Virus record (IMG/VR): IMGVR_UViG_3300017783_000112
Span: 1-32,425 of that record
DNA length: 32,425 nucleotides
Origin: a virus
Strand: one strand, 5' to 3'
Shown here one piece after another: positions 3,101 through 29,509 of this stretch (positions within the stretch are counted from its first letter, which is position 1; the number at the start of each line of letters is the position of its first letter). A program made the position numbers and the translations under genes. The notes under the pieces are model-generated. The model had not been told where the DNA came from. It was given only the letters and a program-made list of their open reading frames with translations, and ran no database searches.

Positions 3101-3302
3101 GGTCTACGCCAAGCGAACGCATTTGTCTTGCGTAATCTAGTATCTCTTCCTGACTAGCGGTGACTAGGTCAACAGAGGGAGCCGAGGGCTGAGAAGCAAA
3201 AAACTGAGCATCAATATCTGCAAGTTCTTGCTGAGTTGGTTCAGTGCCTTCAATCTCTACTTGAACAACTCCTTCAGGAGTTTCTACTTTTATAACACCC
3301 AT
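141..3302 (-). CDS. Large internal virion / DNA-ejection-type protein (1053 aa)
   Basis: Probably carried inside the capsid and ejected with the genome. Seen: 1053 residues, mostly helical and charged, with many Lys/Glu heptad-like stretches. A hydrophobic Gly/Ala-rich segment lies at about residues 171-205 (ATALPIAAGVGAGLMASGVG onward) and a second near 910-940, before a Pro/Gln-rich end. Helical bulk plus membrane-active Gly/Ala segments fits ejection proteins such as P22 gp16 or T7 gp16, though no specific homology can be proven by eye. It is the last of a run of internal-protein candidates and is followed directly by lysozyme, as is common in podoviral operons. Both ends use one-base TAATG overlaps (3302 and 141). 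No transglycosylase motif is recognised. It could instead be a tail-associated structural protein. Confidence 0.8.
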   Translation of the reverse strand: MGVIKVETPEGVVQVEIEGTEPTQQELADIDAQFFASQPSAPSVDLVTASQEEILDYARQMRSLGVDPRTGKQLTEEEYISTYKEPGVDYSTGVDSIGGFSRFQFGRMDNDAERANYLRTVVGDEGYRQDDLGRFILTGEGRNKLGLGEGRELAIDEEGFSFNDVKEFFGATALPIAAGVGAGLMASGVGFLPGMLIVGAATAGGKLLDEGIESAQGLQMQSAGEIARDTAFEGAFGAAGEGVGRGISKIFGRIIKGPGGEANEALRAQAREVINKGYRPTIAGATDESFRPILNRLQAVYEGVFPNKKAADINLATVIDDLRALGLKDETAINNLDEIVKRDIDNFYSTSDEALAGAQRNMDDAVKNELDTIMKNLKEGDVVPKDLNDMIRQRKAIFDEDVDRIYTKVNEILKSEKIIPIRGVKAALDELDKQSIADIGATKFAQQINKLAEEGEYVTAQTMGRIRTGLMDASKNPALLNDTAVYQLGGLKQAVNSSFDEAALGLATRAGTMKASGAAFEDLSTALSNLRRANNFYKSGIRRFDNIVVQDIIKGAQQNRLNTKFVFDKIIQEDNPEALEELLKAIRGAPSGKALGAERGLIDLDEGKRILSQGKYAGKPILEVLEEVRATLPANNLVRRDVERAALRMEREAASKATLRGTGAEQAEQVRQNLARMYLDRAIQKSLIPDARTGEKVIDPIALAANIREKGTTVNKLFGKDKKALDDVLTVLERGKSNLAPGVIQQLRSKPLGQALFDFQAEQAKRASVDKNVIMNTLRSTSDPEVIAQTVFKTPSSIKQAKEFLPAETMESVRDASMGRILKQIGATVDEAGEIRMTDDFVEAFKSGRLGNKLQSVLRSYGPETIDAMFQPGASKALNEMAETMVRASNAAITGKGGLAAPQIALGLGVVSFIMNPLATLPTALAYSVMSKALRNPKVLKMMMASRKPNTVKEFLSGKFKANDPLAQGFQAMWQLAGAATIEGGRMLTGQAQEEARPAMTAAKQQLDPMVQQTIQAAQTMAPQITPPASGTPSQVSPLLVPDPTTRATFGIQ

Positions 3303-5581
3303 TAGTTGACCCTTTTATAAACGCCGTCTACCAATTCGTATTTACCTACTGATTGTGTTGGTTGCATACCTAAAGCAGCTTGTGCGCTAGATGGAAGATC
3401 AAACTGTACTGGCATTCCAGAGCTATAGGTCATTCCAAAAGTTGACGCTTGCGCTTGTTTAAGCACATTAAGAGAATTTTTTTCTTTAAGTTCCAGTTTA
3501 ACTAAAACATTCTGAAGTTTGTCTTGCATTACTTGTGGATCCCTAAACACATACCCGCCGTACCCTGAATAAAGACCTACGATTTCATCTGCAAGTTCAC
3601 GGTCTACGTTAGAGACGTTTCTTCCACCTTCGTTCAAAAGTTCTTTGATCAACTGGTTGGAAACTTTTCTCATGTCAGCGTTATACTCTGCAACAGACTG
3701 ATACTCTTTGCCTAGATCAACACGAACAGAGTTTGCCGCGCCGTTTACTAATTGTTCAAAAGCAGGGCCAAAACCAGTGATGTCTCCTTCTGCTAACTGG
3801 ATTAAGTTTCCTTGAACAACCTGACGAAGTGTGGTAGCACTTGCGTATTCCACTCCTGCTTCATTAACCTTAGTAGTTAAGTCCACAACGTCTTTTGGAT
3901 TCATAATCCTCTTTTGTTGCGCTTCCAAAAGTGCTTTCTGAATATTGGCGGATTGTTTTAAGGCAGCTTCAGCGTATGCTGAAGTGGTTAAACCAGAGGG
4001 TAACCCGTTTTCGAGTATGTAACCTGTTTGCACAGGCACGGTTTGTCCCTTTTTATATTCCTTGCCATCAAGAGTAATGTCTTCATCAGCTACAAAATAG
4101 TTGAGTTTTCGATCCTCTCTTGCCGCCAGTCTGCTTTCTCCTCGCATTTTACCAACTTCACCAAGTCCGTATTGCAGTGCTGAAAGGTTAAGCTGGCGAT
4201 CAAACTCGTCACGTTTAGCCTTATCTTTGATTAATTCATCCGCACCATCAGACATTGCGGATGCGATATTTTCAATAGCGCGAGGACTTTTCCCTGCCGC
4301 CATAGCAAAACCCATCTTAGCAAGAATCAAGCCTTGATCAGCTCCTTCGTATCCGGGAGCTTTATCCATAAACTCTTTAATAAAGCTATCAAGAGTTTTC
4401 TCCTGTTCTTCGGGAGTGCCTTCGGTGATTACACGGGTAATCTCTTCTTTCGGAGAGGCGTACTCTTTCTCGTAAGTGCCAGCTTCACGAACCGCCTCAC
4501 GATCTTCAGGAGTGGCAACAGCCGCATCTTCCCCTGCGGCTTGCGCGGTAGCATCTTCCCCTGCCGTGGCGGCATCTTCTCCTGCCGTGGCGGCATCTTC
4601 GTATGTTTTTGCATAGGTTCCAGCTTCACGAATGGTTTCAAACGTAGGACCTTGCTGTGTTACACCAACTTGAGCACCAGGCATGGTTCCAGCGACAGCT
4701 AGTGCTGCCGCTTCGTCTTCTGGAGAAACTTGAGCTTTGCTATATTCTCCTTGATCTGGAGAAGCGGCTGCGCCAATCTTGATCAGATCAACCCCGCCAG
4801 ATTCTACATCACCGCCAAGTAACGCCGTTCTAAGACGTGGTGGAAGCATAGTAGGGTCAGCATTAAACTTCGCGGCTTCTTCATCCGTAAGCGTGTCTGC
4901 ACCAGACAGCAGTTCTTCTTCGCGCTCTGGTGTCATCATACTTAAAGTACGACTAATTTCTGACCGACTTTGTGAAGCCGTTTCTATCAACGGCACAGCA
5001 GCAAAATCAAATATAGCTGGAACTGTTTTAGCTACAGTTCTTAAAGCCTTTTCTCCCTGTGTTTTAGGTACATCTTGACCGTACAAAAGCTGTTCTGTCG
5101 CTGATGCCATAGGGTATCTTTCTGCAAACTCTATTTGGCTGGTTGGCCTAAGCATACCCCCTAATAAATTGGTAGATGGGCGGTTTGGATCTTGTTGTTG
5201 CTGTATGAGTGAAGCGATACTACCCGTTTGATCCGCGCTCAAAGACACTTTTCCAGAAGGAGCAACTGTCCCCATAGGTAGTGAACTACCCGTATTGGAT
5301 GCAAAATTTGTTCGTGTGTTTAGTTGTGGCGATCTAAATCGAGACAACACCTGCGCTGCTACGTTTGCGCTAACCGGACTTGCCCCTGTCTGGGTGCGTA
5401 AGTATACTTGTGGGTTAGCCCCAGACGTAATCATATAGTTCTGGTTACCTATACGAAAACTATCCGTTCCAACCGAACCTCCGGCTTGAAACTTCTGTAC
5501 AGGCAGACTTCTAATGCCTGCGGCTTTGTTCAGACCGTCACGAGCATTACGCTTGAACATCTTGCGGTTAGTTACGTTCAT
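3302..5581 (-). CDS. Internal virion / ejection-type protein with AGEDA repeats (759 aa)
   Basis: Function inferred from position between two other ejection-type genes. The N-terminus is basic (RKMFKRNARDGLNKAAG) and is followed by FQAGGSVGTDSF, an example of the GG-x-V motif shared with several small proteins here. The middle is acidic and carries short tandem repeats of AGEDAAT type (about residues 325-360, bases 4524-4600), flanked by two copies of a REAGTYxKxY block. The C-terminal half (about 440-700) is helical and charged. No catalytic motif or clear membrane segment is seen. It starts at a TGATG overlap with the upstream gene and ends in a TAATG overlap with the next. Analogy with P22 gp20 or T7 gp15 is only positional. 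Confidence 0.8.
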   Translation of the reverse strand: MNVTNRKMFKRNARDGLNKAAGIRSLPVQKFQAGGSVGTDSFRIGNQNYMITSGANPQVYLRTQTGASPVSANVAAQVLSRFRSPQLNTRTNFASNTGSSLPMGTVAPSGKVSLSADQTGSIASLIQQQQDPNRPSTNLLGGMLRPTSQIEFAERYPMASATEQLLYGQDVPKTQGEKALRTVAKTVPAIFDFAAVPLIETASQSRSEISRTLSMMTPEREEELLSGADTLTDEEAAKFNADPTMLPPRLRTALLGGDVESGGVDLIKIGAAASPDQGEYSKAQVSPEDEAAALAVAGTMPGAQVGVTQQGPTFETIREAGTYAKTYEDAATAGEDAATAGEDATAQAAGEDAAVATPEDREAVREAGTYEKEYASPKEEITRVITEGTPEEQEKTLDSFIKEFMDKAPGYEGADQGLILAKMGFAMAAGKSPRAIENIASAMSDGADELIKDKAKRDEFDRQLNLSALQYGLGEVGKMRGESRLAAREDRKLNYFVADEDITLDGKEYKKGQTVPVQTGYILENGLPSGLTTSAYAEAALKQSANIQKALLEAQQKRIMNPKDVVDLTTKVNEAGVEYASATTLRQVVQGNLIQLAEGDITGFGPAFEQLVNGAANSVRVDLGKEYQSVAEYNADMRKVSNQLIKELLNEGGRNVSNVDRELADEIVGLYSGYGGYVFRDPQVMQDKLQNVLVKLELKEKNSLNVLKQAQASTFGMTYSSGMPVQFDLPSSAQAALGMQPTQSVGKYELVDGVYKRVN
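4524..4600 (-). repeat. Short tandem repeat, 21-base unit, coding AGEDA motifs
   Basis: On the plus strand the unit GCATCTTCCCCTGCCGTGGC occurs at 4551 and, with one base change, at 4572. A diverged and longer copy begins at 4524, and a partial copy starts at 4593. The unit is 21 bases, so the reading frame is kept and the protein gains seven residues per copy. Slippage could vary copy number without disrupting the host gene. Confidence 0.85.
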
Positions 5582-9340: not shown

Positions 9341-9362
9341 GAGCGTATCCTTTGATCAAGGT

Positions 9363-9391
9363 ATTTTACAACATAAACGCCCAAAGGTAAA
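9363..9391 (-). promoter_or_regulatory. Candidate sigma70-type promoter upstream of tail hub gene
   Basis: On the minus strand TTTACC is followed by 17 bases and TAAAAT (four and five matches to the -35 and -10 consensus). It lies in one of the few intergenic gaps, just upstream of the tail hub gene. AT-rich DNA gives such matches by chance, so confidence is low. Confidence 0.3.
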
Positions 9392-9393
9392 TA

Positions 9394-10068
9394 TCACAGT
9401 ATTTTACGCATATTACCTAAAGGAAAGCATGGAGCAGTGACTTGAAAAAAGAAAGTTATAAGCGTTAATCTTGTTTCGCCTTCTTTTATGTTAGTCTCCG
9501 CTTTATGAGGTTGATGGCCATCAAATATCAAGTGGCTGTTAAACACAGAGTCAAAATGTGCAGCCCTGTAAAACTTACTGTTGTGGGCTTCAAGTTCTTT
9601 AAAATATTCTTCTTTGTCTTCTATAGAATTTTCATGGTAATGATTAAATTTTGATTCCTTTGCTTTATCGGAGTAGTAGACATCCCCTGTTGACTTAGGC
9701 AAATAGATTCCTGTGCCGTTACCTAACATATTAGGCGATAAATATACAATAGACGTGAGCGTAGCTTCCCTATCGTCATGCACCCAAGTTTTAGTACCGT
9801 CAACAAGGTCGTCATAAGTTATCTTTTGAAAACGAGACTCTGCATTCCAGTAGATAAAAGACGATTTGTCTGTGATTCCAGGATAAAAAATAGACAATGT
9901 TCTTTGACAAAAGAACCTGAAAAACTCTGGAGCAACAAGAGTCATGTCCTCCGTCCTTGCTCCAGGGTATGTTCCTAGATTTTTTTCGTATTCTAAAGAA
10001 TCAGCGAAATGAATGATATCATATGGGTTATCAAAAAAGTTTAATATTTGCGTATTAGGGAAATTCAT
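9394..10068 (-). CDS. 2OG-Fe(II) oxygenase-like protein, DUF6445-type (224 aa)
   Basis: Predicted iron-dependent oxygenase fold. The sequence shows YPGART near residue 34, the metal-type motif WVHDDREATLTSIVYLS (His97, Asp99), a distal His188 in FDGHQPHKAE, and Arg200 in GETRLTLITFFF. This His-x-Asp...His...Arg layout is that of 2-oxoglutarate dioxygenases; the YPGAR block and size recall the DUF6445 family. I chose ATG 10068 rather than an upstream start at 10098 because GGAAG lies five bases before it and it follows the previous stop by two bases. Second of two adjacent oxygenases in the fibre region. The substrate is unknown; candidates are virion protein residues, nucleotides or host metabolites. 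Confidence 0.8.
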   Translation of the reverse strand: MNFPNTQILNFFDNPYDIIHFADSLEYEKNLGTYPGARTEDMTLVAPEFFRFFCQRTLSIFYPGITDKSSFIYWNAESRFQKITYDDLVDGTKTWVHDDREATLTSIVYLSPNMLGNGTGIYLPKSTGDVYYSDKAKESKFNHYHENSIEDKEEYFKELEAHNSKFYRAAHFDSVFNSHLIFDGHQPHKAETNIKEGETRLTLITFFFQVTAPCFPLGNMRKIL

Positions 10069-10070
10069 TA

Positions 10071-10616
10071 CTACTTCCAATCTGGGCCTTCTATCCAAGA
10101 AACTAAACTACGTCTTAGTCCTTTAGTCACAGGTTCCACTTTATGTGGACGAAAGGAAGGAAAAACTAAAACAGAACCTCGTTCTTTAAATCCTTCTGGC
10201 TCATTGTCCCAAAAAATAAACTTCCCGCCCTCGTAATCAGAGGAGTCGGAAAGTTGAATAACCATAGATAGCTTCCTGTTAAAACCTCCGTGTTTTGCAA
10301 AAGTATCAATATGCCAATCAAAATGACCTTTTTTTCCACCTTTATATTCAGTGTATTGAATGTCATACACGGTTGTCGCATTAACACCAAACTCTCTGTT
10401 CGCATGTGAAAAATATTCTTGAACTAAAGAGGATAAAAAATTATCTTTTTGAACCCATCGAATATCACTTATCCTTACTTTAGGTTTAGTGTTGTCTACT
10501 TGGTTCTCACTATTAAGAATTGCCGCTTGCTGTGGCTCAAATTGATATGATTTTTCTATAATTAAATCGCATGTTTTTGAATTTAGTTCACCCTTCCATA
10601 ACCAATAAGCATGCAT
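10071..10616 (-). CDS. 2OG-Fe(II) oxygenase, prolyl 4-hydroxylase-like (181 aa)
   Basis: Predicted dioxygenase coupling 2-oxoglutarate decarboxylation to substrate hydroxylation. The double-stranded beta-helix signature is complete: HFDWHIDTF gives His102 and Asp104, then RKLSMVIQLSDSSDYEGGKF, and GSVLVFPSFRPHKVEPVTKG supplies His158, followed by Arg168/Arg169 for 2OG binding. The LSDSSDYEGGxF and FPSFRPHxVxPVTxGxRRSLVSWI blocks are typical of the P4H/PiuC-type family. Start taken as ATG 10616, the second of GTG-ATG, because GAGG lies seven bases before it and the ATG overlaps the methyltransferase stop (TGATG). It is one of three oxygenase-like genes here. The natural substrate cannot be read from sequence. 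Confidence 0.93.
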   Translation of the reverse strand: MHAYWLWKGELNSKTCDLIIEKSYQFEPQQAAILNSENQVDNTKPKVRISDIRWVQKDNFLSSLVQEYFSHANREFGVNATTVYDIQYTEYKGGKKGHFDWHIDTFAKHGGFNRKLSMVIQLSDSSDYEGGKFIFWDNEPEGFKERGSVLVFPSFRPHKVEPVTKGLRRSLVSWIEGPDWK

Positions 10617-11125
10617 CACAGCACCTCTATTTTTGAGTCAGATATAGATACTGTTGGATATGTATGCTCTTGCACAATATTTTGACCTCTGTCACCAGTG
10701 TAATGGTTGCCCGTCATCAAAACCCTCCCGTTTTCTGTCGTGCTATTTAAAAGACGTTTTATAAATGTTTTTTGTTTACAATAAGGAATATAGGGTAATA
10801 CCGCACCCATGCAAAGCACTAAATCGTACTTTTCAGTTGGCCACTCGTGACGAAAATCTAGTTCAGGGTGTAGTTTTTTAGCGGCATCGTGAATATCATA
10901 ACACACTACGGGGAAGGGTAGTGCCGCTTCGATGTCCCCATTTCCACAGCCAATAGATAAAACAGTCCCACCAAGGTAACGCTGTTTTATTCGATCTACT
11001 TGTTTGTTTACATAAAACTCATAATTAGGAAACAGCTTTTTATACGAGCCGTTAATCATACATGAATAAAAGTCTGTTATGTTTTCGGATATTGTGCTTT
11101 TATTGCAGCAACATGAGCTTGCCAT
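10616..11125 (-). CDS. SAM-dependent methyltransferase, class I (169 aa)
   Basis: Predicted Rossmann-fold methyltransferase. Motif I VLSIGCGNGDIEAA is at about residues 55-68, the acidic end of strand 2 is YDIHD (76-80), and the motif IV region is YDLVLCMGAVL (100-110). It is short for a class I enzyme (169 aa) and ends soon after a strand-5-like region, so it may act as a minimal or partner-dependent enzyme. The given ATG overlaps the upstream gene by 49 bases and has a poor RBS; an internal ATG at 11059 lies downstream of that stop but would remove part of the N-terminal helix. It is followed by a TGATG junction to the oxygenase, suggesting co-translation. The substrate is unknown. Confidence 0.82.
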   Translation of the reverse strand: MASSCCCNKSTISENITDFYSCMINGSYKKLFPNYEFYVNKQVDRIKQRYLGGTVLSIGCGNGDIEAALPFPVVCYDIHDAAKKLHPELDFRHEWPTEKYDLVLCMGAVLPYIPYCKQKTFIKRLLNSTTENGRVLMTGNHYTGDRGQNIVQEHTYPTVSISDSKIEVL

Positions 11126-11451: not shown

Positions 11452-11452
11452 T

Positions 11453-17449: not shown

Positions 17450-18117
17450 TAGTTCACCGCATAATATCTAAGGTTTGGTGCAACTTGAAATGTAGCACGA
17501 TCTCTGTCTTCAGTTCTCGCTCGGTCAAACTCTTCTTCATACACCGCTTTCAATAACGTGACCCGTTCAGGCGCACGTTTCATGGCTAGATAGTAAGCTA
17601 GACCCGCTGCCAAGCAAGGATAGAATCGAAAGGGAACCTCCACAGTGTTTGTCATTGTATCCGCGTCCTCTATACGAGTTAACGCATCATACACAACAAT
17701 ATCTGTGCTGTTTTCTGGCGTAGGCCATACTTTAAGGTTCGGTGTTATCTGTCTATCTAAAAAGAACTGAGTCGGGCGGCTCTCTGTGCTTTTGCTTGGA
17801 ATAGCAAGATACTCATCTCGACTTAATCTGTCCATTGTAAGATCCGTGGTGTCACGCCGAAGAACAGCCGACATAATGTCGATGACATCACTACCTAGAG
17901 CATACTCAGCCGTTCCATCTATCATAGTGGCTGTCCGCTGTGTGATCGTCCATTGATTAAGACCTCGATTAGCCCAGTCAGCAAACAACAGGTTCAACGA
18001 TCTCTTGGCTGTTTTTAAGTCGTAGCCAGTTTTAACTTCCAAGCCACAACGCTCAAAAGCCTCTTCAATGTAGTCAGCTACATCTAATTCAAAGTTTGTT
18101 GAACCTGAAGTTGTCAT
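17449..18117 (-). CDS. Head-tail adaptor, P22 gp4-like (222 aa)
   Basis: Probable tail accessory factor bound to the portal. N-terminal helices (LDVADYIEEAFERCGLEVKT, then YDLKTAKRSLNLLFADWANR) are followed by a beta region with QWTITQRTATMIDGTAEYAL and GSDVIDIMSAVLRRD, an aromatic PTQFFLDRQITPNLKVWPTP strand pair, and C-terminal helices (FYPCLAAGLAYYLAMKRAPE). From memory this helix-beta-helix pattern with 'ADYIEEAFERCGLE' and 'AGLAYYLAMKRAPE' is frequent in gp4-like adaptors of marine podoviruses. Length about 222 is somewhat above P22 gp4 (about 166). The start is in a TAATG overlap with the 39-residue repeat peptide. Confidence 0.83.
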   Translation of the reverse strand: MTTSGSTNFELDVADYIEEAFERCGLEVKTGYDLKTAKRSLNLLFADWANRGLNQWTITQRTATMIDGTAEYALGSDVIDIMSAVLRRDTTDLTMDRLSRDEYLAIPSKSTESRPTQFFLDRQITPNLKVWPTPENSTDIVVYDALTRIEDADTMTNTVEVPFRFYPCLAAGLAYYLAMKRAPERVTLLKAVYEEEFDRARTEDRDRATFQVAPNLRYYAVN

Positions 18118-18236
18118 TACTTTTTCTTTCTTTTAATCATGCCGCCACGCATTTTCTTGACCATGCCGCCACGCATCATCTTTACGGGCTTCTTTTTGAC
18201 CATTCCGCCACGCATTTTACGCATAGGTTTTTTCAT
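18117..18236 (-). CDS. 39-residue basic repeat peptide (MRGGMVKK repeats)
   Basis: A short ORF that I read directly. It begins MKKPMRKMRGGMVKKKP and has three copies of the unit KMRGGM[VI]K (residues about 7-14, 20-27, 28-35), ending IKRKKK. About 40 percent of residues are Lys or Arg and there are no acidic residues. The ATG has GGAGA seven bases upstream, lies 20 bases inside the end of the preceding gene, and the stop TAA shares its A with the adaptor ATG (TAATG). A packed virion protein, DNA-binding peptide or assembly factor is possible. Such MxGGMV-type peptides are, from memory, widespread in marine phages and uncharacterised. Confidence 0.82.
   Translation of the reverse strand: MKKPMRKMRGGMVKKKPVKMMRGGMVKKMRGGMIKRKKK
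18138..18215 (-). repeat. 15-base near-identical repeats encoding MRGGM
   Basis: Plus-strand CATGCCGCCACGCAT is at 18138 and 18162, and CATTCCGCCACGCAT is at 18201. Spacings are 24 and 39 bases, both multiples of three. A related CATGCCGCCACTCAT occurs near 25110 in another gene. Confidence 0.85.
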
Positions 18237-18696
18237 CGTATTTTCTCCAATCTCGCCTGTCTGCGATGAGTTTTTCATAATCACTAGGGTCATACTGCTT
18301 GTAGTAACCCATTTTCTCTAACCATGCTGCAGCGTTATCTAGATGAGATAACCGCTGTATGAAGATCATCGTATAATCACCTTCAAAAGCCAAAAGCCAA
18401 ATGTCTTTTCCCTCATGAGCAAATCTTGCATTTAAGGCAAAGCAGTAATTTTCTGTTTCCTCGTAAGTTTGATTCCATTCATCAACAGCACAAATAACAA
18501 CTTTAAAACTGTCGTCAAACATATCTACTTCGGAAAAGACTGTTTTCCATAAATCTAGATCGCTCTGCCAAACAACTTTTACCTCGTTACTCAACCAAGC
18601 CTTTTTGGCATACGGGCACAAAGGTATATTGTTTGTTTCAGCACTGGGAATAGATACCTCATTCAAGATCCAATCCTCAATGCTTTGAGTGATCAT
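18217..18696 (-). CDS. Conserved-type protein of unknown function (159 aa)
   Basis: Not recognised. Globular, moderately acidic protein. Distinctive motif near residue 27: LCPYAKKAWLSNEVKVVWQ, followed by a DLWKTVFSEVDMFDDSFKVV region, a beta strand FKVVICAVDEWNQTYEETEN, and ALNARFAHEGKDIWLLAFEG. The CPYAKKAW block resembles one I remember from hypothetical proteins in marine phages and bacteria. No signal peptide or membrane segment. It overlaps the previous gene by one base (TAATG at 18696) and the start of the 39-residue peptide by 20 bases. It is the only non-basic member in this stretch of small basic proteins, so it may neutralise or chaperone them; that is speculation. Confidence 0.75.
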   Translation of the reverse strand: MITQSIEDWILNEVSIPSAETNNIPLCPYAKKAWLSNEVKVVWQSDLDLWKTVFSEVDMFDDSFKVVICAVDEWNQTYEETENYCFALNARFAHEGKDIWLLAFEGDYTMIFIQRLSHLDNAAAWLEKMGYYKQYDPSDYEKLIADRRDWRKYDEKTYA

Positions 18697-18896
18697 TACA
18701 TCATACCCCTCGGCTTGCGTACAACTGTAGGACTCTGCATCATCTGTCCTAGGTTTTGAGCAAAGAGATTTGCTCTTTTAACGTCCACAGTACCACCCAT
18801 GTTATAGCCCATCGCCATAGCTTTGCGAGGGCTTACCATGCCACCATCTTTATACTTGTCACTCTTCTTAGATTTCTTTGATCCGCAATTTCTCAT
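18696..18896 (-). CDS. Small basic protein with GG-x-V motifs (66 aa)
   Basis: Function unknown. It starts MRNCGSKKSKKSDKYKDGGM and has two GG-x-V elements (KDGGMVSPRK and NMGGTVDVKR), Met-rich stretches (KAMAMGYNMGG, LGQMMQS) and ends VVRKPRGMM. Calculated by eye it is strongly positive. RBS AAGGAG is six bases before the ATG, and the start overlaps the upstream stop by four bases (ATGA). The GG-x-V elements relate it to the 39-residue peptide and to the 126-residue protein at 24848-25228. It is likely a virion or packaging-associated polypeptide. Confidence 0.82.
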   Translation of the reverse strand: MRNCGSKKSKKSDKYKDGGMVSPRKAMAMGYNMGGTVDVKRANLFAQNLGQMMQSPTVVRKPRGMM

Positions 18897-19171
18897 GATT
18901 TTCTCCTTTTAACTGCCTTAACACGTCTTGGCTTACCTGCTGGCTGCCCTAAACGCTTCTTCTGCGATATTCTACTCTTTTTTTCAGATTTAGACAATTC
19001 ACCTGCCGTCTTAGGGGTTTTAGACGAAACCTTTTTCTTTGGCCGACAATAAGGCACACCACGTTTCTCGCCTTTCTTTCTGCCGCAAGGCTTGCCCGTG
19101 CGCACGTCTATCCACTCTTCCTTGAACCAGCGTTTGAGTGCAGCACCTTTTTTAGTCTTCCGAACAGCCAT
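18893..19171 (-). CDS. Basic protein, KRWFKEEW-type (92 aa)
   Basis: Highly basic protein. The N-terminal half carries ALKRWFKEEWIDVRTGKPCG followed by RKKGEKRGVPYCRPKKKV, a motif (A-L-x-RWFKEEW-x-D...KPCGR...YCRP) known to me from phages and large viruses without assigned function. The cysteines (CGRKKGEKRGVPYC) may bind metal. The C-terminal half is a Lys/Arg tail (KSEKKSRISQKKRLGQPAGK). Similar compositions fit DNA-condensing or head-internal proteins. Starts in a TAATG overlap and ends in an ATGA overlap, in a run of basic small proteins. Confidence 0.85.
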   Translation of the reverse strand: MAVRKTKKGAALKRWFKEEWIDVRTGKPCGRKKGEKRGVPYCRPKKKVSSKTPKTAGELSKSEKKSRISQKKRLGQPAGKPRRVKAVKRRKS

Positions 19172-19353
19172 TAGTATGTTTTACCCTTGCTTTTAGTTTT
19201 TCGTACCTTGCTCTTAGAAGATTTACCTTTTCCTCCAGTCCCCCAGTTTTTAGCTCCCACCTTTCGGCATTTAGCAATCGCGCCCGAAGCATACGCAGAG
19301 GGAAAGACCTTATATCGTGCTTTAACTTTTCTATAACATGCATCTTTTGCCAT
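19171..19353 (-). CDS. Small basic protein, DACYRKVKARYKVFPSAYASG-type (60 aa)
   Basis: Small basic protein beginning MAKDACYRKVKARYKVFPSA. The family signature (Y-x-x-VK-x-x...K-x-x-PSAYASG-x-x-x-KCRKVGAKNWG) recurs in marine phages, where I recall it as uncharacterised. The second half is a Gly/Ser/Lys/Arg tail ending SKGKTY. I chose ATG 19353 rather than the longer start at 19419: GAG lies seven bases upstream, it follows the previous stop at 19358 by four bases, and the extension looks non-conserved. A role in DNA binding or head assembly is plausible. Confidence 0.85.
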   Translation of the reverse strand: MAKDACYRKVKARYKVFPSAYASGAIAKCRKVGAKNWGTGGKGKSSKSKVRKTKSKGKTY

Positions 19354-19357
19354 CTTG

Positions 19358-19588
19358 TCACTCTTTTTCTGTGGTGGGTTTGATATTTGTTTGCTCATGG
19401 AACCACGCGAGATCGCCATTTCGTCTATCCTCTATAAAATCTGCCCATAAAACAGATAGCATCTTGTGGTTTTCGTCAACTTTTATTGCAATAACAGCAG
19501 TATCCGTCTTGAGATCAACCACAGACATGGCCACCCAACCTACAAAACCCGCTAACAAAGTAGCTATAACGGTTCTATAATCTAGCAT
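19358..19588 (-). CDS. Single-pass membrane protein (76 aa)
   Basis: Predicted N-in membrane protein: MLDYRTVIATLLAGFVGWVA with a transmembrane helix at about residues 6-25, then a soluble helical region (KTDTAVIAIKVDENHKMLSV, FIEDRRNGDLAWFHEQTN). One membrane span with a C-terminal amphipathic helix fits spanin, holin-regulator or tail-anchor types; nothing more specific is visible. I chose ATG 19588 because GGAG lies six bases upstream; it overlaps the previous stop (TAG at 19582-19584) by seven bases. It is the one membrane protein in a run of basic proteins. Confidence 0.72.
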   Translation of the reverse strand: MLDYRTVIATLLAGFVGWVAMSVVDLKTDTAVIAIKVDENHKMLSVLWADFIEDRRNGDLAWFHEQTNIKPTTEKE

Positions 19589-19845
19589 TTCCATCTCCGC
19601 CGTGCCGCACAAATGCGCTTCTTGGGTGTCTTCTTACAACTAATGTTATGCATCTTCATTTGTCCCGCAGACCGCTTACAGTAAGATGTCCTGCGTTTAC
19701 CGCCACTCGGTTGCGGTGCCTTCAGCTTAGAGCCTGTAGCCTTATTGTATTTCGCTCGGCCTTTTGCGGTCAATCCAGCACCTTTAGATGCTGGCAGCTT
19801 TTCGCCTTTTTTAACCGACAAGCTCACACTTTTCTTGGTTGCCAT
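19582..19845 (-). CDS. Basic Cys-containing protein, AGLTAKGRAKYN-type (87 aa)
   Basis: Very basic protein of the type seen in cyanophages and other marine phages (DUF6321-like from memory). Key elements: GAGLTAKGRAKYNKATGSKL, then GGKRRTSYCKRSAGQMKMHN and CAARRRWKC. Four cysteines (56, 70, 79, 87) could bind zinc or form disulphides. I chose ATG 19845 because it shares its A with the TGA stop of the 27-residue ORF upstream (TGATG); the codon before it is TTG. Its stop lies near the start of the membrane protein. Presumed structural or DNA-binding. Confidence 0.82.
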   Translation of the reverse strand: MATKKSVSLSVKKGEKLPASKGAGLTAKGRAKYNKATGSKLKAPQPSGGKRRTSYCKRSAGQMKMHNISCKKTPKKRICAARRRWKC

Positions 19846-19928
19846 CAACGACCCCTCAACCGCCCCCGGCAGTTCGCAAGAACCCCGGAAGCGTGTAGAT
19901 GTTTTGCAATAACTTTATTGCCTGCCAT
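19845..19928 (-). CDS. 27-residue basic mini-protein
   Basis: Short ORF read directly. It begins MAGNKVIAKHLHASGVLAN and ends with CRGRLRGR, so the C-terminus is arginine-rich. The start ATG 19928 shares its A with the TAA of the upstream structural gene, and the stop TGA shares its A with the next ATG (TAATG then TGATG). This precise tiling supports translation. It is part of the run of basic small proteins and could be a DNA- or RNA-binding peptide. No family can be assigned with certainty. Confidence 0.6.
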   Translation of the reverse strand: MAGNKVIAKHLHASGVLANCRGRLRGR

Positions 19929-20869: not shown

Positions 20870-21778
20870 TTATGCACCTTGTGAACCAAATACACAACGC
20901 GGATCAGAGAAACCGAAGCTGTAACGCTCACGAGCCTTGAAACGCATGTTACCTGTGTCAAAGTCTGCTTCCATCTGGGTTGACAGTGGCACACGCTCAA
21001 AGTGGACGAATCCACGCGGAGCATCTGTTGTCAAGAAGAAAGCATTTGGATCCGTTAGGAAGTCGTTGACGGCATAGCCATCAGGCAACATGCCCATTGA
21101 ACGAATCGCATTGACATCATTGTCGGCAGTACCAACACGAAGGTTGGATACCATCAGGCGTTCTGCAATGAACTGTAGCTGACGTGGAACGACCAGCTTC
21201 ATGCCGCGCAGAGCAACCTTCAGACCACGTTCGTCAACGAAACCAGCAATGCTGATTAGAGCGTCTTCAAGAGAAGTTTCGTTCAAGTCAGCGGCAGTTG
21301 TTGGTTCGTTAGCAAAGGTGCTACCGTTGGTCAGCGGGTGATCAGTTGCGCAAAGTGCTTTGCCATCGCCACCAGTTACGGTGCCGTCAAAGGCATTGTT
21401 AAGCACAGAGGCAGCTTTAACCTGCTTTGTGTGAGCCATTGAACGAGCAAGAGCACGAGTGTAGCGGCTGGAGAGACGATCATAAAGATTGTCTTCCACA
21501 GCTTCTTCAGTAATGCTGAATGCCAAAGCAATGGTTTCATGGTTGTAACGAGCAGTATATGCTTCGTTAGCGTCATCAAAATTCACCGCAGAACCTTCTG
21601 ATTTAGTAGGTGCCGCGCCAAACCCGGATAACATGACCTCCTCCTCGAATGCTCTATCAGAGGATTCGGTGGTGAAGATTTCGGCGTGCTGGTTTTCGTA
21701 GCGTGAATACTCCATACCAAATAGAGCATTAAGGCCAGGTTCCAGCTCTTTCGCCAATTGTTGACGTGAAATAGCCAT
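20870..21778 (-). CDS. Major capsid protein, HK97-fold type (302 aa)
   Basis: Forms the head shell. Assignment rests on length (302), globular composition without low complexity, position after scaffold and before connectors, and the sequence pattern: LAKELEPGLNALFGMEYSRY, AFEEEVMLSGFGAAPTKSEG near residue 45, then NEAYTARYNHETIALAFSIT and EEAVEDNLYDRLSSRYTRAL, and late PRGFVHFERVPLSTQMEADF and KARERYSFGFSDPRCVFGSQ. This resembles Mu gpT-like/HK97-fold capsids in marine phages. The RBS AAGGAGG lies eight bases upstream, the best in the window, fitting high expression. Two strong terminators follow. No N-terminal delta domain or protease gene is seen; the separate scaffold gene fits. Confidence 0.9.
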   Translation of the reverse strand: MAISRQQLAKELEPGLNALFGMEYSRYENQHAEIFTTESSDRAFEEEVMLSGFGAAPTKSEGSAVNFDDANEAYTARYNHETIALAFSITEEAVEDNLYDRLSSRYTRALARSMAHTKQVKAASVLNNAFDGTVTGGDGKALCATDHPLTNGSTFANEPTTAADLNETSLEDALISIAGFVDERGLKVALRGMKLVVPRQLQFIAERLMVSNLRVGTADNDVNAIRSMGMLPDGYAVNDFLTDPNAFFLTTDAPRGFVHFERVPLSTQMEADFDTGNMRFKARERYSFGFSDPRCVFGSQGA

Positions 21779-21786
21779 TGTCTAAG

Positions 21787-22436: not shown

Positions 22437-22455
22437 GGGGTTACTCCTTCACAAG

Positions 22456-22917: not shown

Positions 22918-22921
22918 AGCA

Positions 22922-23800
22922 TTACTCCTTTACATACTTAGCGTATTCTTCAAGAGGAACACCAAGTTTTTTAGCCATTGCTACCTGTGATGGAGACAAC
23001 TTGACGGTCCTGCGCCCCTGTTTGTTACTGCGGGATGCGGAAGTTGAAGCCGAGGCGACCCTAGAACTTCCCCCGTTTTTGGGTTTACCCATTTCGTTTG
23101 GAAAACGGTTTTGTAAACGGGTATCCAATTCACTATAATACTCATCGCTTCCCGCGTCAAACCCTTCTTCAAGAAGTTGCTTGTCTATTACGAAAGCGGC
23201 ATTAGTCATTATCTCATCTTCGCCAAACCACTCGTGTCCTGCGGCCCATTTTTGTGCTTTGGGATCAGGTTGTTGTGCTTGTGGCTGTTGAACCTGTGGC
23301 TGTGGTGCAGGTTCTTGCTGCGGCTGTTGAACAGAAGCACTTTCCTGCCGCTGTTTTGCCAAGCGAAAACGCTCTTGTTCTATGGAAATTTTAGAAAGAG
23401 CCTGTTGAGCATCGAATAATGCATCAGCATCACCACGATCATGAGCTTCTCTGTAAGCCTGTTTTGCTGTAGACAACTGAGACTCAATACGATTTCCGTA
23501 CTCAGAAATGTAACCTTGGTCTAAGTTACTTAGCTTTGTTTTTAGCTGTTCGTTTTCTGTTTTTAAAACTTCCGCTAAACGAGCCGCTTCTTCTTTGTCT
23601 CGTTCTGCAAAGCGGTACTTTTCAGTTAGTTTTTTGATGCGCTTTTGCACACCCTTACTATAGTTGTCCAGTTCGTCTTCCGAAGTGTCCTGTTCCGCTG
23701 TCTCTACCTGCGGTGCAGTATCTTCTTCTTGCTGTTCAACCTGTTTTCCAGATTCGTCAAGGGTTACCTCAACTTCTTCTGTCATTTGTGCTTCTGCCAT
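22922..23800 (-). CDS. Scaffolding protein (292 aa)
   Basis: Probable head-assembly scaffold. Typical composition: acidic disordered N-terminus, a long coiled-coil region (about residues 50-150, for example KRIKKLTEKYRFAERDKEEA), a Gln/Pro linker (about 158-180) and a basic C-terminus (SNKQGRRTVKLSPSQVAMAK) that could bind the coat protein. Lack of cysteine and of enzyme motifs agrees. Position before the decoration and capsid genes matches P22 gene 8. RBS AGGAGG is well placed before the ATG. It starts 10 bases after the GroES-like gene. Confidence 0.87.
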   Translation of the reverse strand: MAEAQMTEEVEVTLDESGKQVEQQEEDTAPQVETAEQDTSEDELDNYSKGVQKRIKKLTEKYRFAERDKEEAARLAEVLKTENEQLKTKLSNLDQGYISEYGNRIESQLSTAKQAYREAHDRGDADALFDAQQALSKISIEQERFRLAKQRQESASVQQPQQEPAPQPQVQQPQAQQPDPKAQKWAAGHEWFGEDEIMTNAAFVIDKQLLEEGFDAGSDEYYSELDTRLQNRFPNEMGKPKNGGSSRVASASTSASRSNKQGRRTVKLSPSQVAMAKKLGVPLEEYAKYVKE

Positions 23801-23810
23801 TTATGCCTCC

Positions 23811-24281
23811 TCAGACCTGTTTTACATCATCTGGTTCTAAAATAGTGGCTATCACTTCGTCATCATTAATGATACGAACTTCGCCTCCATCAATCTTAAA
23901 CCGTGATCCTGCGTAGCGACCAATACACACCCACTGACCTTCTTGACACCACGCTTCTGGAGTATCTCCAAATTTGTTGGGGTCTTGGTAGGCCAAAGGT
24001 CCTAGCTTCAACACATAGGCTACTACTGTAGCCAAGGCTTCTCGCTCTCTCGCTTGGTCGGGAATTATAACGCCACCTTCTGTTTTAGCTCTGCCTTGAT
24101 AGGGCATAACTAAAAGCCTCCAGCCTGTAGGCTGCGGCAAGCGTTCTTTTAAGGTTTTTTGGAGTAGGCTAGGGTCAAGCACTTTTTCATTAGCGTTAAC
24201 GTAAGCCTCTTCAACTGAGGTGGATTTTTTATCGGCTACTTTTGCTGCGATATGATCAGGAACGTATAAAGTCTTCGCCAT
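23811..24281 (-). CDS. GroES-like co-chaperonin (156 aa)
   Basis: Predicted Cpn10-like partner for host GroEL, likely needed for capsid-protein folding. The Cpn10 core begins QPTGWRLLVMPYQGRAKTEG, with the mobile-loop segment KTEGGVIIPDQARE (GGVII at 69-73, compare GroES GGIVL), followed by ATVVAYVLKLGPLAYQD and the C-terminal strand VRIINDDEVIATILE. An N-terminal extension of about 50 residues is not in GroES, and residues about 100-120 (KFGDTPEAWCQEGQWVCIGR) replace the roof loop. I chose ATG 24281 (GGAG upstream); a longer reading starting 24386 lacks support. It overlaps the previous gene by 26 bases. No GroEL gene is seen. Confidence 0.9.
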   Translation of the reverse strand: MAKTLYVPDHIAAKVADKKSTSVEEAYVNANEKVLDPSLLQKTLKERLPQPTGWRLLVMPYQGRAKTEGGVIIPDQAREREALATVVAYVLKLGPLAYQDPNKFGDTPEAWCQEGQWVCIGRYAGSRFKIDGGEVRIINDDEVIATILEPDDVKQV

Positions 24282-24468
24282 CGTCTGTGTTTCTCTCCAG
24301 CAGGGATTTAATTTCTTCCTTGGCGTAGACAAGTCCCTGTACTTCTCCCACCAACCGCTGATACTGCTCAAAGTTTTGAACACCACCAGATGTTAACATG
24401 TCGGCAACCTGATATTCTCGTTGCTCTAACAATTTATATATGTATTTTGCGAAGTCTGCAACATCCAT
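24256..24468 (-). CDS. Short helical protein of unknown function (70 aa)
   Basis: Predicted three-helix small protein: DVADFAKYIYKLLEQREYQV, GVQNFEQYQRLVGEVQGLVY, then KEEIKSLLERN. From memory, short proteins with the opening M-D-x-x-x-F-A-K-Y-I-Y-K-L-L recur in marine phage capsid modules. Starts in a TAATG overlap with the Cys-rich gene and overlaps the GroES-like gene by 26 bases. No enzymatic motif. It might be a chaperone accessory or a virion part. Confidence 0.8.
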   Translation of the reverse strand: MDVADFAKYIYKLLEQREYQVADMLTSGGVQNFEQYQRLVGEVQGLVYAKEEIKSLLERNTDDGEDFIRS

Positions 24469-24848: not shown

Positions 24849-25228
24849 TAGTATGTCCCGCTAAACTTTTTGCCTTTTACAGCAGAACCTGAACCTCGGC
24901 ACATGCTACCAACTTCAACAGACATGCCGTCTTTGAAGCCTTTAACTCTGCCGCCGTAACGATAAGTGCGACCAGTCTCTTTAAATAGATCAGACTTTAT
25001 TTCATCAACCATATCTTGATCGCCAGACTCTTGAGCCGATTTAAGCATCTCTTCTAGTTCTACAGTACGAACGTCTTCATCGATACTGCCGCCAGAACCA
25101 TATTTAACCATGCCGCCACTCATCATACTATTTTTCATAGCTTCAAAATCTGCACCCGTGATTGAGTCACGAGGTTCTGCTACACGAGCAATCTTCATCT
25201 GCTTGGCAGTATACTTGTTTTTTGACAT
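24848..25228 (-). CDS. GG-motif small protein (126 aa)
   Basis: Unknown function. Contains SMMSGGMVKYGSGGSIDEDV and YRYGGRVKGFKDGMSVEVG, i.e. GGMV and GGRV elements, and ends VKGKKFSGTY. Charged helices lie in between (EDVRTVELEEMLKSAQESGD). I chose ATG 25228, sharing its A with the TGA stop of the holin-like gene (TGATG), with TAGGAG six bases upstream. Its C-terminal 'KKFSGTY' resembles the ends of the proteins encoded at 29129-29509 (KNFKGSF) and of the 13-codon ORF (GKFRGIF). Probably a virion-associated or assembly polypeptide. Confidence 0.8.
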   Translation of the reverse strand: MSKNKYTAKQMKIARVAEPRDSITGADFEAMKNSMMSGGMVKYGSGGSIDEDVRTVELEEMLKSAQESGDQDMVDEIKSDLFKETGRTYRYGGRVKGFKDGMSVEVGSMCRGSGSAVKGKKFSGTY

Positions 25229-25686: not shown

Positions 25687-25687
25687 C

Positions 25688-26133: not shown

Positions 26134-26134
26134 A

Positions 26135-26608
26135 CTATTCATCCTTAAACTTAAAAAACCAAAGTAATAAAAGTAAAATAGCTACTCCAGTCACAATAGA
26201 CGCTACAATTACAACCCACTCTAAAAACTTCTGTCGTCTTTCGCGTTGACGGTACAGAGTTTCTTGCCTTTGCTTTCGTATTCTGCCTTCCATTGCTATG
26301 AGTTCATCCCAAGCCTTGGAACCAATGGTGTACTGCATCCATTGTTTTAACTCCGCTCTTTGCTTTTCGGCTTTCTTTTTAGCGGCATAGGCTTCTAATG
26401 CTTCCTGTTCAATACTTTTGCCAGAAAACATCTTCTTAAAAAGTGGGGGATTTTTAGCTTCTTTTTCCGCTTGATCAATGTCAGAAAGCGCACCCATCCA
26501 TCGGCTCAATTGACCGACCATGGACTCGATATCTCGACCTACCGCGAAGCCTTTTTTAATTGCAGAAAACGCCGCCGTAGCGGTTGCCATTGCACTAACT
26601 GGATCCAC
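26135..26608 (-). CDS. Tail-anchored membrane protein of unknown function (157 aa)
   Basis: Helical charged protein with a C-terminal membrane anchor: the first 125 residues are amphipathic and Lys/Glu-rich (IEQEALEAYAAKKKAEKQRA, RKQRQETLYRQRERRQKFLE), followed by WVVIVASIVTGVAILLLLLW as a transmembrane helix and a short FKFKDE tail. It starts with GTG, sharing its G with the TAG stop of the portal (TAGTG); the next ATG is at 26590. Position between the portal and holin candidates suggests a membrane or lysis role, possibly a spanin or internal membrane-targeting protein. Not recognised. Confidence 0.75.
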   Translation of the reverse strand: MDPVSAMATATAAFSAIKKGFAVGRDIESMVGQLSRWMGALSDIDQAEKEAKNPPLFKKMFSGKSIEQEALEAYAAKKKAEKQRAELKQWMQYTIGSKAWDELIAMEGRIRKQRQETLYRQRERRQKFLEWVVIVASIVTGVAILLLLLWFFKFKDE

Positions 26609-29088
26609 TAACTTTGACGCATCGCCGCCATATCACGCTGGTTTTGAATACGCTCCCTGTTCACATCTGCTCTGTCCTCCGCGATTTCCTCTTGGAGTTC
26701 AATTCTAGCTGCGTCAGTCATAGCTCGTTGTTGGAGCTTCTGGCGTTCAATATCTAACTCAGCGGCATCTTGCTGTGCTCGTCTTTGAGACTCCGCCGCT
26801 TTGATAGCTAGTTCTTGCTGACGAATTTGAACCAGCGGATCTTGCTGCCCCTGTGGAGCCAGCATCTGTAGTATTTCTTGAGTGAACTGCGCTTCAAGTT
26901 TTGCAACTTCAGCTTCTATCATTTCAGGCGACATCATTTGTGCTTGTTGCATTGCTTGTTGTGCCATCATAGGATCTACCGCGCCCATCTGTGCACCTAA
27001 TGCCATCTGTTGCGCTTGCGCTTGAGCTTGTTGCGCTTGTTGCATGACAGCTAAACGTGCTTTCATTGAAATGTGATCTTGGATATGTGCAATGTAAATA
27101 GCGTAGATGTTTGGAGAGCCAGCCACCATAGGCAACTTCATAAAGGTGACATGCGCCATAATATGGGCATCATGATCCTGCTCTTGAAACGCAGTCAAGA
27201 TCTCACCCTGTAATGCCTTCGCATTTTCGATGCTTGGGCTGGTAGGTTGCGGTTCTTTCTTGGCAGGCAATATCTCATCAATGTTCTGGACTTCTAACGC
27301 CTGATACATACGCTTGTATGCTTCGTACAGGTTGTGAATCTGCGGGTTGGATTGCGCCAGTTGAAGTTGTGTTTGCGCTAATGTTACGCGCTGGGCCATC
27401 GAGAAGATGTTCGGATCAGACACTGGAATAATGTCCACACGCCCGTCAAAGTCTTGCGCCATGATTTCTGATGGCGCACCAGCAACTTCATAAGGATAAA
27501 CCGCTGGCATGTTTTCCGCTAAGATCTTACCCAACAAACGGAACTCGGTCTTTTGCGCGTAATGCAACCGCTTGTGAATAGCTGACATAACTTTCATGCC
27601 ACGCTCAAGCAAAGCTACAGTTGTGCCTACAGGCATATCTCCACTTTGCCCCTCGCCAATCTGTTGATCAGCAATAGAAACGAAACGGCGACCACCCTCA
27701 ATCAACGAGCCTAGCAACTGAGCAAGAGTGCCTGACGGCTCTTTGAATGGAAGTGGAATGATTGAGTTTCTGATATCCCCACCAGGAGCATCAATATCTC
27801 TGAACTCACCAGGAGCTAGTGGCTCGTCTTCGTTACGAATACGAATACCTCGCGCCTTGAAACCAGATGGCAGGTTGGCCAGTGTACCAGCATCTATCAA
27901 CTGTCTAAGAATACTTGTCGCTGCACGACCTAACCCGCCGATCATATGAATTAGACCAAACCCGTAGAACCCTAGACCAGGGAGAAACTTGTAGTGCACG
28001 AAGTATTGACGCTTGCGCTTTAATGGATCTTGTTGATCATAGTTGCGAATAATGGAAAGAACTTCCCCAGAACCCTGATCAATCGTAACAATATATGGCA
28101 GCTTAATTCCCGTAGGCTCACCGTCCGTGCCCACGTCTTCAAAACCCTCTAACTCAAGATCGACATGCATCTCCAGTAAGGTGTGGATTTCATCAGTGTA
28201 TCCTTTGGAAATACCCTCTAGTTCATCTACCTTATCTCGAACCGGATTGTCTTGATCTTCTCCGTCTTCTGAAATCTCAACATCGCGGTAAACACCCGCA
28301 ACCTGCATTTTGCGAATTTGATTGCCGTCCATGCGAACAGTGTGAGTAACACGAGGAGCCGTAGCTAAATCAGTAGCAGAATAAGACACAACCAAGTCTT
28401 CGGCTGGGACGAATGCAGATACCGCACGTCCTTTAGTAGGGTCGTAGTAAACTTTCTTAAAAGTAGAACCGGACAACGGTAGATAGAACAACATCTGATC
28501 CGTGTCAGGATCAAACTCTTCCATCACTTCCGTGACTTGATAGTTCATAAAGTTCTTAACACGAGAAGACTGAGCTTCTTTCTCCGGTGTCTTTGCACCC
28601 ATGATCTGTGTTTTGACAGGGCCACCCGCTGGAAGCAACTCTTTGTAGGCTTGCGCCTGAAACTGCGTAACGGACTCGGAGATTAATGGATGAGTGACAC
28701 CAGATGAACCTTCAAAAGGCTGGCTCCGCTCTTGATACTTGATACCTAAAAGATCTAACCCCTTTGTGTATCCCTCTTCCCAATCAGAACGAGACTCCAT
28801 ATCTTCTTCATACAACCCACGAAGTTCACTGGATATCTCACCAAGAATGCCCTCGTCAACCACCTCGGCTAGGTTCGCCATGTGATCATACTGTTCAGTC
28901 TCGACCTCTATTCCGTCTGGCATCTCCCCACCCATAAGAGCCTGAATGAGCGCAGTTCCGTCAGCCTGTTCCATGACTTCCGCACCGCCAGCAAAATCTT
29001 CTACCTGCGGTATCTCTACGTTCATTCCTTCTGGAGCCTCGATTCCAGAATCTACTAAGCTGCCCATAGGGCGTGGAGGTATTGCCAT
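26608..29088 (-). CDS. Portal protein (P22-type, 826 aa)
   Basis: Dodecameric DNA entry channel at the head vertex. Evidence: position immediately after the terminase, large size, and typical segments: RSDWEEGYTKGLDLLGIKYQ, QPFEGSSGVTHPLISESVTQ, FQAQAYKELLPAGGPVKTQI, then YKFLPGLGFYGFGLIHMIGG and ILRQLIDAGTLANLPSGFKA, and later VGTTVALLERGMKVMSAIHK. The extended C-terminal 145 residues (from about 682) are Gln/Ala/Met-rich helical, compatible with a barrel-type P22 portal; total length exceeds P22 gp1 (725). RBS AGAGGG is upstream of the ATG. It starts at a TAATG overlap with the 13-codon ORF and stops in a TAGTG overlap. Confidence 0.92.
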   Translation of the reverse strand: MAIPPRPMGSLVDSGIEAPEGMNVEIPQVEDFAGGAEVMEQADGTALIQALMGGEMPDGIEVETEQYDHMANLAEVVDEGILGEISSELRGLYEEDMESRSDWEEGYTKGLDLLGIKYQERSQPFEGSSGVTHPLISESVTQFQAQAYKELLPAGGPVKTQIMGAKTPEKEAQSSRVKNFMNYQVTEVMEEFDPDTDQMLFYLPLSGSTFKKVYYDPTKGRAVSAFVPAEDLVVSYSATDLATAPRVTHTVRMDGNQIRKMQVAGVYRDVEISEDGEDQDNPVRDKVDELEGISKGYTDEIHTLLEMHVDLELEGFEDVGTDGEPTGIKLPYIVTIDQGSGEVLSIIRNYDQQDPLKRKRQYFVHYKFLPGLGFYGFGLIHMIGGLGRAATSILRQLIDAGTLANLPSGFKARGIRIRNEDEPLAPGEFRDIDAPGGDIRNSIIPLPFKEPSGTLAQLLGSLIEGGRRFVSIADQQIGEGQSGDMPVGTTVALLERGMKVMSAIHKRLHYAQKTEFRLLGKILAENMPAVYPYEVAGAPSEIMAQDFDGRVDIIPVSDPNIFSMAQRVTLAQTQLQLAQSNPQIHNLYEAYKRMYQALEVQNIDEILPAKKEPQPTSPSIENAKALQGEILTAFQEQDHDAHIMAHVTFMKLPMVAGSPNIYAIYIAHIQDHISMKARLAVMQQAQQAQAQAQQMALGAQMGAVDPMMAQQAMQQAQMMSPEMIEAEVAKLEAQFTQEILQMLAPQGQQDPLVQIRQQELAIKAAESQRRAQQDAAELDIERQKLQQRAMTDAARIELQEEIAEDRADVNRERIQNQRDMAAMRQS

Positions 29089-29129
29089 TAGAATATCCCT
29101 CTAAACTTTCCGCGTCTCTTGACCTTCAT
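29088..29129 (-). CDS. Putative 13-codon mini-gene (MKVKRRGKFRGIF)
   Basis: ATG at 29129 to TAA at 29088-29090, reading MKVKRRGKFRGIF. Its start shares a base with the TAA of the upstream gene and its stop shares a base with the portal ATG, so it exactly fills the 40-base gap. AAGGG lies nine bases upstream. Six of 13 residues are Lys or Arg and it ends KFRGIF, like the C-terminus KNFKGSF of the upstream protein. It may be a true micropeptide or only a leader that couples ribosomes to the portal start. Confidence 0.45.
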   Translation of the reverse strand: MKVKRRGKFRGIF

Positions 29130-29509
29130 TAGAAGCTGCCCTTGAAGTTTTTAATATTAACACTTCCGCCGTTACGAAACTCTTTAGTCTCGGTTTTTTT
29201 CTTATATTGTTTAGGTCCAGCTCTGTTATTAGCCTTGTATACATCGGCTACACTTTCTGCTTTAGAGCCATACCCAGCTTGTCCAGGGTATACCTTTAAA
29301 TAGTCGTTTACACCCTCAAGTGCTTCTTCAGGACCTGAGTTCATTTCATATTTTCCAGAAAGTATTTCGCGTTCTGCTATTGCCTTTGCAGCATTAAGCA
29401 TAGCGTTCTCATTTTTTCCGTATACTTCATCTGTTGGCTCTGGTGGTATACTTGCTGATGTTTCAGCCATGAGCTTGTTCAATGCTGCGTTTTTATCTTT
29501 TTTAGCCAT
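29129..29509 (-). CDS. Small polar protein after terminase, GG-motif (126 aa)
   Basis: Unknown function. Predicted polar, partly helical: MAKKDKNAALNKLMAETSAS, an Ala/Glu helix with ENAMLNAAKAIAEREILSGK, and a C-terminal basic part PKQYKKKTETKEFRNGGSVN ending IKNFKGSF. The NGGSV element belongs to the GG-x-[VI] set. I chose ATG 29509 because it shares its A with the TerL stop (TAATG) and AGGAG lies about eight bases upstream; the longer start at 29539 lies inside terL. A terminase or portal accessory role is possible from location. Confidence 0.8.
   Translation of the reverse strand: MAKKDKNAALNKLMAETSASIPPEPTDEVYGKNENAMLNAAKAIAEREILSGKYEMNSGPEEALEGVNDYLKVYPGQAGYGSKAESVADVYKANNRAGPKQYKKKTETKEFRNGGSVNIKNFKGSF

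Follow-up and report, generated by a model that had tools for sequence, protein, structure and literature searches.

Encapsulin cargo-loading peptides are short C-terminal sequences that are carried by unrelated cargo proteins and bound inside an HK97-fold shell. In phage T4, the capsid-targeting sequence (CTS) is N-terminal and is removed by the head protease. The internal proteins of T-even phages are diverse and share only their targeting sequence (PMC3012670), and crAss001 stores cargo in both capsid and tail (PMC10172136). Here we describe a C-terminal tag of marine podoviruses, found in a 32.4-kb virus record of HTVC023P type (IMGVR_UViG_3300017783_000112, positions 1 to 32,425; hereafter the window, meaning the whole stretch analysed) that is probably a fragment. 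Portal identity with HTVC027P, HTVC023P, DSL-LC04, 023Pt_psg01 and CRP-902 is 42-50%. On the minus strand the gene order is TerL, small genes, portal, small genes, GroES, a probable scaffold and capsid, followed by small basic genes (DUF6321, PSAYA, DUF5872), tail adaptors, nozzle and an ejection module.

The original prediction had pointed to a GGx[VI] motif recurring in unrelated proteins of the window, and all the strings that it quoted were found in place (Table 1). GGx[VI] occurs 29 times, compared with 11.4 in 1000 composition shuffles (shuffle maximum 23), and is thus 2.5-fold enriched, which bears out the expectation that it is commoner than chance. The enrichment was 6-fold in proteins shorter than 170 residues (12 versus 1.9 shuffled), and 16 proteins bore the motif versus 8.2 after shuffling. 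The search was extended to 109 loci, comprising the window, five cultured relatives and 103 IMG/VR loci retrieved with portal, ejection and small-protein queries. To exclude homology, their 1340 dominant-strand proteins, called by a simple longest-open-reading-frame method that yields some spurious calls, were grouped into 515 clusters and one representative was counted per cluster, with the mirrored pattern, whose composition expectation is identical, as control. Across these related phages the motif stood out in a sharper form, [FYMW]xxGGx[VI], at 40:5 over its mirror in proteins under 200 residues, 14:6 at 200-400 residues and 29:8 above 400. G is preferred at -4, D at -1, and +3 is mostly V. 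In the window, plain GG is just mildly enriched (126 versus 112). An effect of chance or composition in small proteins where glycine and lysine are frequent is ruled out by the mirror and shuffle controls; the slot restriction and the absence from other pelagiphages described below also speak against this explanation, whose probability we regard as negligible. Instances of GGxV in GroES, portal, methyltransferase and Gly-rich tail proteins are ordinary folded-domain sequence and were left out of the motif. TerL, which had been listed among the motif proteins, did not hold up: its segment reads R[FYL]R.G.[FLM], N, S or W often replaces the second G, and GG is kept in 75 of 109 TerL tails.

In the contexts listed, many copies of the motif sit just before a stop codon, with F-x-G-x-[FY]-stop after them, and the proteins that bear them are unrelated. 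K-x-F-x-G-x-[FY] ends had been noted on three gene products without being joined to GGxV as one tag. Two of these ends, on products of ordinary size, are as described (KKFSGTY and KNFKGSF); the best candidate for the third, a 13-codon open reading frame (ORF) encoding MKVKRRGKFRGIF, fits F-x-G-x-F and not K-x-F. In many proteins the GGxV motif and the F-x-G-x-[FY] end each form one half of a single C-terminal tag, with the full consensus [F/Y/M]xxGGx[V/A]-RGxGAA[I/V][R/K]G[T/K]KFKG[V/T/I][F/Y]-COOH. Over body clusters, the consensus by position is R(-16) G(-15) G(-13) A(-11) [IV](-10) [RK](-9) G(-8) [KT](-7) K(-6) F(-5) K(-4) G(-3) [TVI](-2) [FY](-1), where -5, -3 and -1 are fixed by how the tails were selected. 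Of the 244 tagged proteins, 161 have GGx[VIAL] within their final 30 residues and 62 have the reversed pattern there; the N-terminal half of the tag is thus frequent but not obligatory. This half, [F/Y/M]xxGGx[V/I], also occurs without the C-terminal half. In the 759-residue ejection-module protein it sits N-terminally: of the 14 relatives whose N-terminus is complete, 13 keep F-x-x-GG-x-V around residues 26-37, even though the central part of the protein is often unalignable. Relatives of the 264-residue ejection-module protein, which has weak matches to tape-measure PHROGs, keep the related [FM]AxGGI[VA].

Pattern scans of DNA confirmed the direction of the tag and its fixation at the C-terminus. 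GG-V--K-F-G-[FY]-stop was found in 82 IMG/VR contigs versus 4 for the codon-order mirror, the latter looking like copies of a single sequence, and the listed matches to the forward pattern are in frame at the ORF end. RG-G-A--G--F-G-[FY]-stop was found on many different bodies in at least 120 IMG/VR contigs, which are redundant, against about 0.6 expected by chance (our own arithmetic, here and below), and was often joined to the N-terminal half as KGGMVRGxGAAIRGTKFKGIF. The same pattern gave 6 matches in 257 Gb of prokaryote genomes, about the chance estimate of 4, and at least one of them is evidently a marine phage contig inside a metagenome-assembled genome. The tag region was covered by no Pfam or PHROG family, either in proteins of the window or in ten relatives bearing the tag; the only profile matches were to a PSAYA body (phrog_27331, residues 1-46) and, below threshold, to a coiled coil in one body. 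Tag peptides of 22-25 residues searched against a phage collection returned HTVC023P itself or nothing, probably owing to short length and low-complexity masking. In the literature we found no description of the C-terminal tag, and the P-SCSP1u structure paper has nothing on small ORFs.

The tag is modular. Like the targeting sequence of T4, it is one short peptide that proteins of a single phage have in common though they are otherwise unrelated. The 244 unique tagged proteins are variable, mostly basic and small, and their bodies fall into 70 BLAST clusters once the tail is removed and the motif masked; masking was used because permissive clustering merged most bodies through internal motifs. 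In one locus (L272), the TerL-portal interval holds six genes in a row that end in FKG[TV][FK] or FTGVK, and tandem runs of three (L027) and four tagged genes (L250, L271) also occur. Three alternative endings occur on the PSAYA body: the F-x-G-[FY] tail, a second one that reads GCGxV[ML]xxRRKxTK, and another. The second tail was found in at least 120 IMG/VR contigs, on DUF5872-like bodies too. Comparison of the window with two near relatives, L159 (TerL 96% identical) and L130, shows an exchange of the body. TerL and portal are nearly identical at the DNA level, the body between them is without clear similarity, and the sequences become similar again near the GG codons of GGSVNIKNFKGSF. The body of the tagged protein in the TerL-portal slot has thus been exchanged while the tag was kept, and the MKVKRRGKFRGIF peptide encoded next to it is identical in all three. 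Because the body is swappable while the tag stays, an unrecognised address label is suggested.

The near-identity of the tag DNA between the window, L159 and L130, with similarity resuming at the tag, could also mean that the shared tail is a DNA element, a recombination or regulatory site translated incidentally. However, invariant tag residues use several synonymous codons, with third positions free to vary across 55 distinct tail DNAs, and tags within a genome share just 48% of codons at identical residues. Codon variation rules out a DNA-level element, an account that we find hardly credible, and the tag is selected at the protein level. Recent copying of tags within a genome is unsupported by the same 48%.

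Tagged genes are restricted in position and in phage group. They are limited to the TerL-portal, portal-GroES and pre-adaptor slots; among small genes elsewhere, tags were found in 0/229 upstream of TerL, 0/67 between adaptor2 and nozzle, 0/123 in the open slot after the capsid gene and 0/83 after the nozzle. The motif occupies the same slots (77 versus 5 mirrored in portal-GroES). In loci that were not selected for the tag, tag or motif was present in 24/28 portal-GroES and 21/42 TerL-portal intervals, the mirror motif in 5 and 5. Homologues of group core genes are carried by 213 of 217 tag-bearing loci, and the tag belongs to HTVC023P/HTVC027P-type phages, one of the commonest marine phage groups. 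In HTVC023P itself, gp51 bears the tag and gp32 bears a variant of it. HTVC010P and HTVC019P, pelagiphages of the same host, carry neither the tag nor a copy of the motif. The partner of the tag is therefore probably phage-encoded, and a general host-encoded partner is disfavoured. This absence also bears on mimicry of GroES, whose mobile loop is comparable to GG-[IV]-[VI] and which would bring motif-bearing proteins to GroEL for folding. The portal-GroES slot does adjoin the phage GroES gene, and GroES-like proteins here have GG[VIL][IV] in the loop region. However, GG is not followed by consecutive hydrophobics as in a GroEL ligand, position x being usually polar or small (often K, R, S, M or A); the modelled tails look disordered; and other pelagiphages with the same host chaperonin are without the tag. 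We consider such mimicry very improbable.

AlphaFold models were obtained for two proteins. In the family of the portal-GroES protein of the window, whose nine members have invariant GG and RG.G.AV.GK.FSGT columns, a helical hairpin was predicted at residues 52-86 (predicted local distance difference test, pLDDT, ~80) and a disordered tail at residues 88-127 (pLDDT <50). In the PSAYA protein, two helices within residues 1-32 were predicted with confidence, but confidence was low for the linker and tail. Overall, both models are of poor quality (mean pLDDT 54 and 64); they support just the statement that the tag tail is probably unstructured when alone.

The prediction of a shared tag on head-module and internal proteins thus stands in a modular, position-restricted and protein-level form. 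Of the three roles offered for it, head targeting fits the sequence data best. Processing at GG is disfavoured since conservation extends to the very last residue, and a cut there would remove the conserved segment. We give an even chance to the tag being an unstructured docking peptide that recruits bodies to the procapsid for packaging and delivery. Its partner would be a component of the head that the phage encodes, namely the scaffold, the capsid interior or the portal; the docked tag would draw bodies into or onto the procapsid, and these would be packaged in the head and then delivered, working as the CTS does on T-even internal proteins. In favour of head docking we count the 82 versus 4 contigs, the in-frame position at ORF ends, the 244 tagged proteins in 70 body clusters, the free third codon positions, the body swap, the runs of up to six tagged genes, the slot restriction, the absence from HTVC010P and HTVC019P, the N-terminal half kept in the ejection-module protein, the predicted disorder of the tail and the T-even precedent. 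Several observations weigh against it. The F-x-G form was present in just 12/28 portal-GroES and 9/42 TerL-portal intervals of loci not selected for the tag, and some genomes of the group are without it. Within a genome, tags on different bodies resemble one another no more than tags from different genomes do (P 0.26), which gives no indication that they co-evolve with a single partner in each genome.

In addition, the basic character of the tag and bodies also suits a nucleic-acid-binding tail, which is for that reason the main rival. A basic, RG/GG-rich tail with aromatics could coat or condense packaged DNA or bind RNA, and any location in the head would then follow from DNA binding. Net charge is +0.19 per residue over the last 16 residues, tagged bodies carry +0.08 per residue compared with +0.02 in other small proteins, and the neighbouring PSAYA, DUF5872 and DUF6321 proteins are strongly basic; but the strict F-x-G-x-[FY]-stop end and the fixed spacing exceed what basic RG tails need, and we judge nucleic-acid binding unlikely, if worth keeping in view. 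The adjacency of the slots to portal, TerL and GroES would also suit helpers of packaging or capsid assembly that the tag docks to portal, TerL or scaffold and that leave before the virion is complete. Swappable bodies would be unusual for essential assembly factors, however, and the N-terminal half is kept in the ejection-module protein too, which makes this a rather improbable account.

The tag may represent a new sorting code of abundant marine phages, a reading to which we give somewhat less than an even chance: a C-terminal zip code, existing in two or more interchangeable forms (..KFKGVF-COOH and ..GCGxVMxxRRKxTK), that would load a swappable set of small, effector-like proteins into virions. 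Every tagged body encoded in the TerL-portal or portal-GroES slot would then be a candidate for delivery to host cells at infection. As a marker of likely virion-internal or assembly proteins, the tag would allow many unknown genes to be placed by their last 20 residues. Should it load cargo, it would open up a large, testable catalogue of proteins possibly injected by these phages, and foreign proteins could be brought into phage shells with the tag as a new peptide handle.

Table 1. Coordinates of tagged, motif-bearing and neighbouring genes in the window and in related loci (L numbers)
Feature	Coordinates	Strand	Remarks
Tagged protein, portal-GroES slot, 127 aa	24848..25231	-	Internal SGGMVK, SGGSID, YRYGGRVK; tag CRGSGSAVKGKKFSGTY, last 16 codons at ~24851-24898
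Tagged protein, TerL-portal slot, 126 aa	29129..29509	-	NGGSVN; tail EFRNGGSVNIKNFKGSF; tag ~29132-29170
13-codon ORF, almost tag alone	29088..29129	-	Predicted ORF
66-aa protein before tail adaptors	18696..18896	-	YKDGGMVS, YNMGGTVD; homologue in L006
Small ORF, 58 aa, three RGGM[VI]K repeats	18117..18293	-	Overlaps 18217-18696
Ejection-module protein, 759 aa	3302..5581	-	N-terminal KFQAGGSV, residues 30-37; AGGSVG at ~residue 34
Ejection-module protein, 264 aa	6462..7256	-	FAQGGIA, FAPGGYI ahead of GPGTGTSDD tape-measure-like segment
TerL	29509..30969	-	Slot boundary; RFRQGGFI segment left out of motif count
Portal	26608..29088	-	Slot boundary; phrog_1216, SU10_portal
GroES-like co-chaperonin	23811..24386	-	Slot boundary; phrog_3188
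Probable scaffold, candidate tag partner	22922..23800	-	Adjoins capsid gene, composition; phrog_28737 (no assigned function)
Major capsid protein, candidate tag partner	20870..21778	-	phrog_371
PSAYASGA-domain protein	19171..19419	-	phrog_727; tags on such bodies in relatives
DUF5872 protein	18893..19171	-	Second tag form on such bodies in relatives
Small basic DUF5872, PSAYASGA and DUF6321 proteins	18893-19848	-	Bodies tagged in relatives
ORFs resembling 2OG-Fe(II) oxygenases by eye	9394-10098, 10071-10619, 15864-16490	-	
Tiny repeat proteins	L062:11279-11488, L120:1828-2013, L013:8608-8787		
Ending GG[ED]V[VTE][VI]..G..YIKDL[IL]	L041:2578-2952, L055:6893-7192, L040:5154-5513		
605-aa ORF	L218:6279-8096		Ends VPRGSGVAIKGKRFGGIY; internal QKGGPV

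The 13-codon ORF of the window is joined by TAATG overlaps on both sides, to the stop of the preceding tagged gene and to the portal start. The RGGM[VI]K ORF overlaps its neighbour, yet an identical ORF is present in the relative L006; its counterparts in three other loci are tiny proteins made almost entirely of TKGYRxGGxV- or KKKGYARGGAM-like repeats. In nearly all group members, TerL ends in an acidic stretch followed by ...YY-stop, possibly a docking tail of its own. Domains related to DUF5872, PSAYASGA and DUF6321 occur in cyanophage proteins, of which T4-GC 119 lies between gp16 and gp17. Genes for 2OG-Fe(II) oxygenases are annotated near the tail genes of HTVC023P and HTVC027P as well. 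A separate prohead protease gene was not recognised among the profile-search matches in the window. A further C-terminal ending is shared by unrelated small proteins of the same phage group (Table 1), and a tag-like end was found on a 605-residue ORF in a contig stretch without group core genes, where the tag may extend to other phages or the match may be due to chance.

Compared with described systems, the tag resembles most closely the CTS of T4 and T-even phages (IPI-IPIII), a short terminal peptide on diverse, small, basic head-module proteins whose bodies vary (PMC3012670). It differs in being fixed at the C-terminus, in having another sequence and in being conserved to the last residue; because it is not N-terminal, it is not classed as a T4 CTS. 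With encapsulin cargo-loading peptides it shares a short C-terminal peptide on unrelated proteins, but those belong to cellular compartments and have another consensus. The ejection and cargo proteins of crAssphage and P22/T7 are likewise virion-internal and encoded in the structural module; in crAss001, however, the domains of the cargo are described as bound to the portal and tail barrel, rather than a short terminal tag shared between proteins (PMC10172136).

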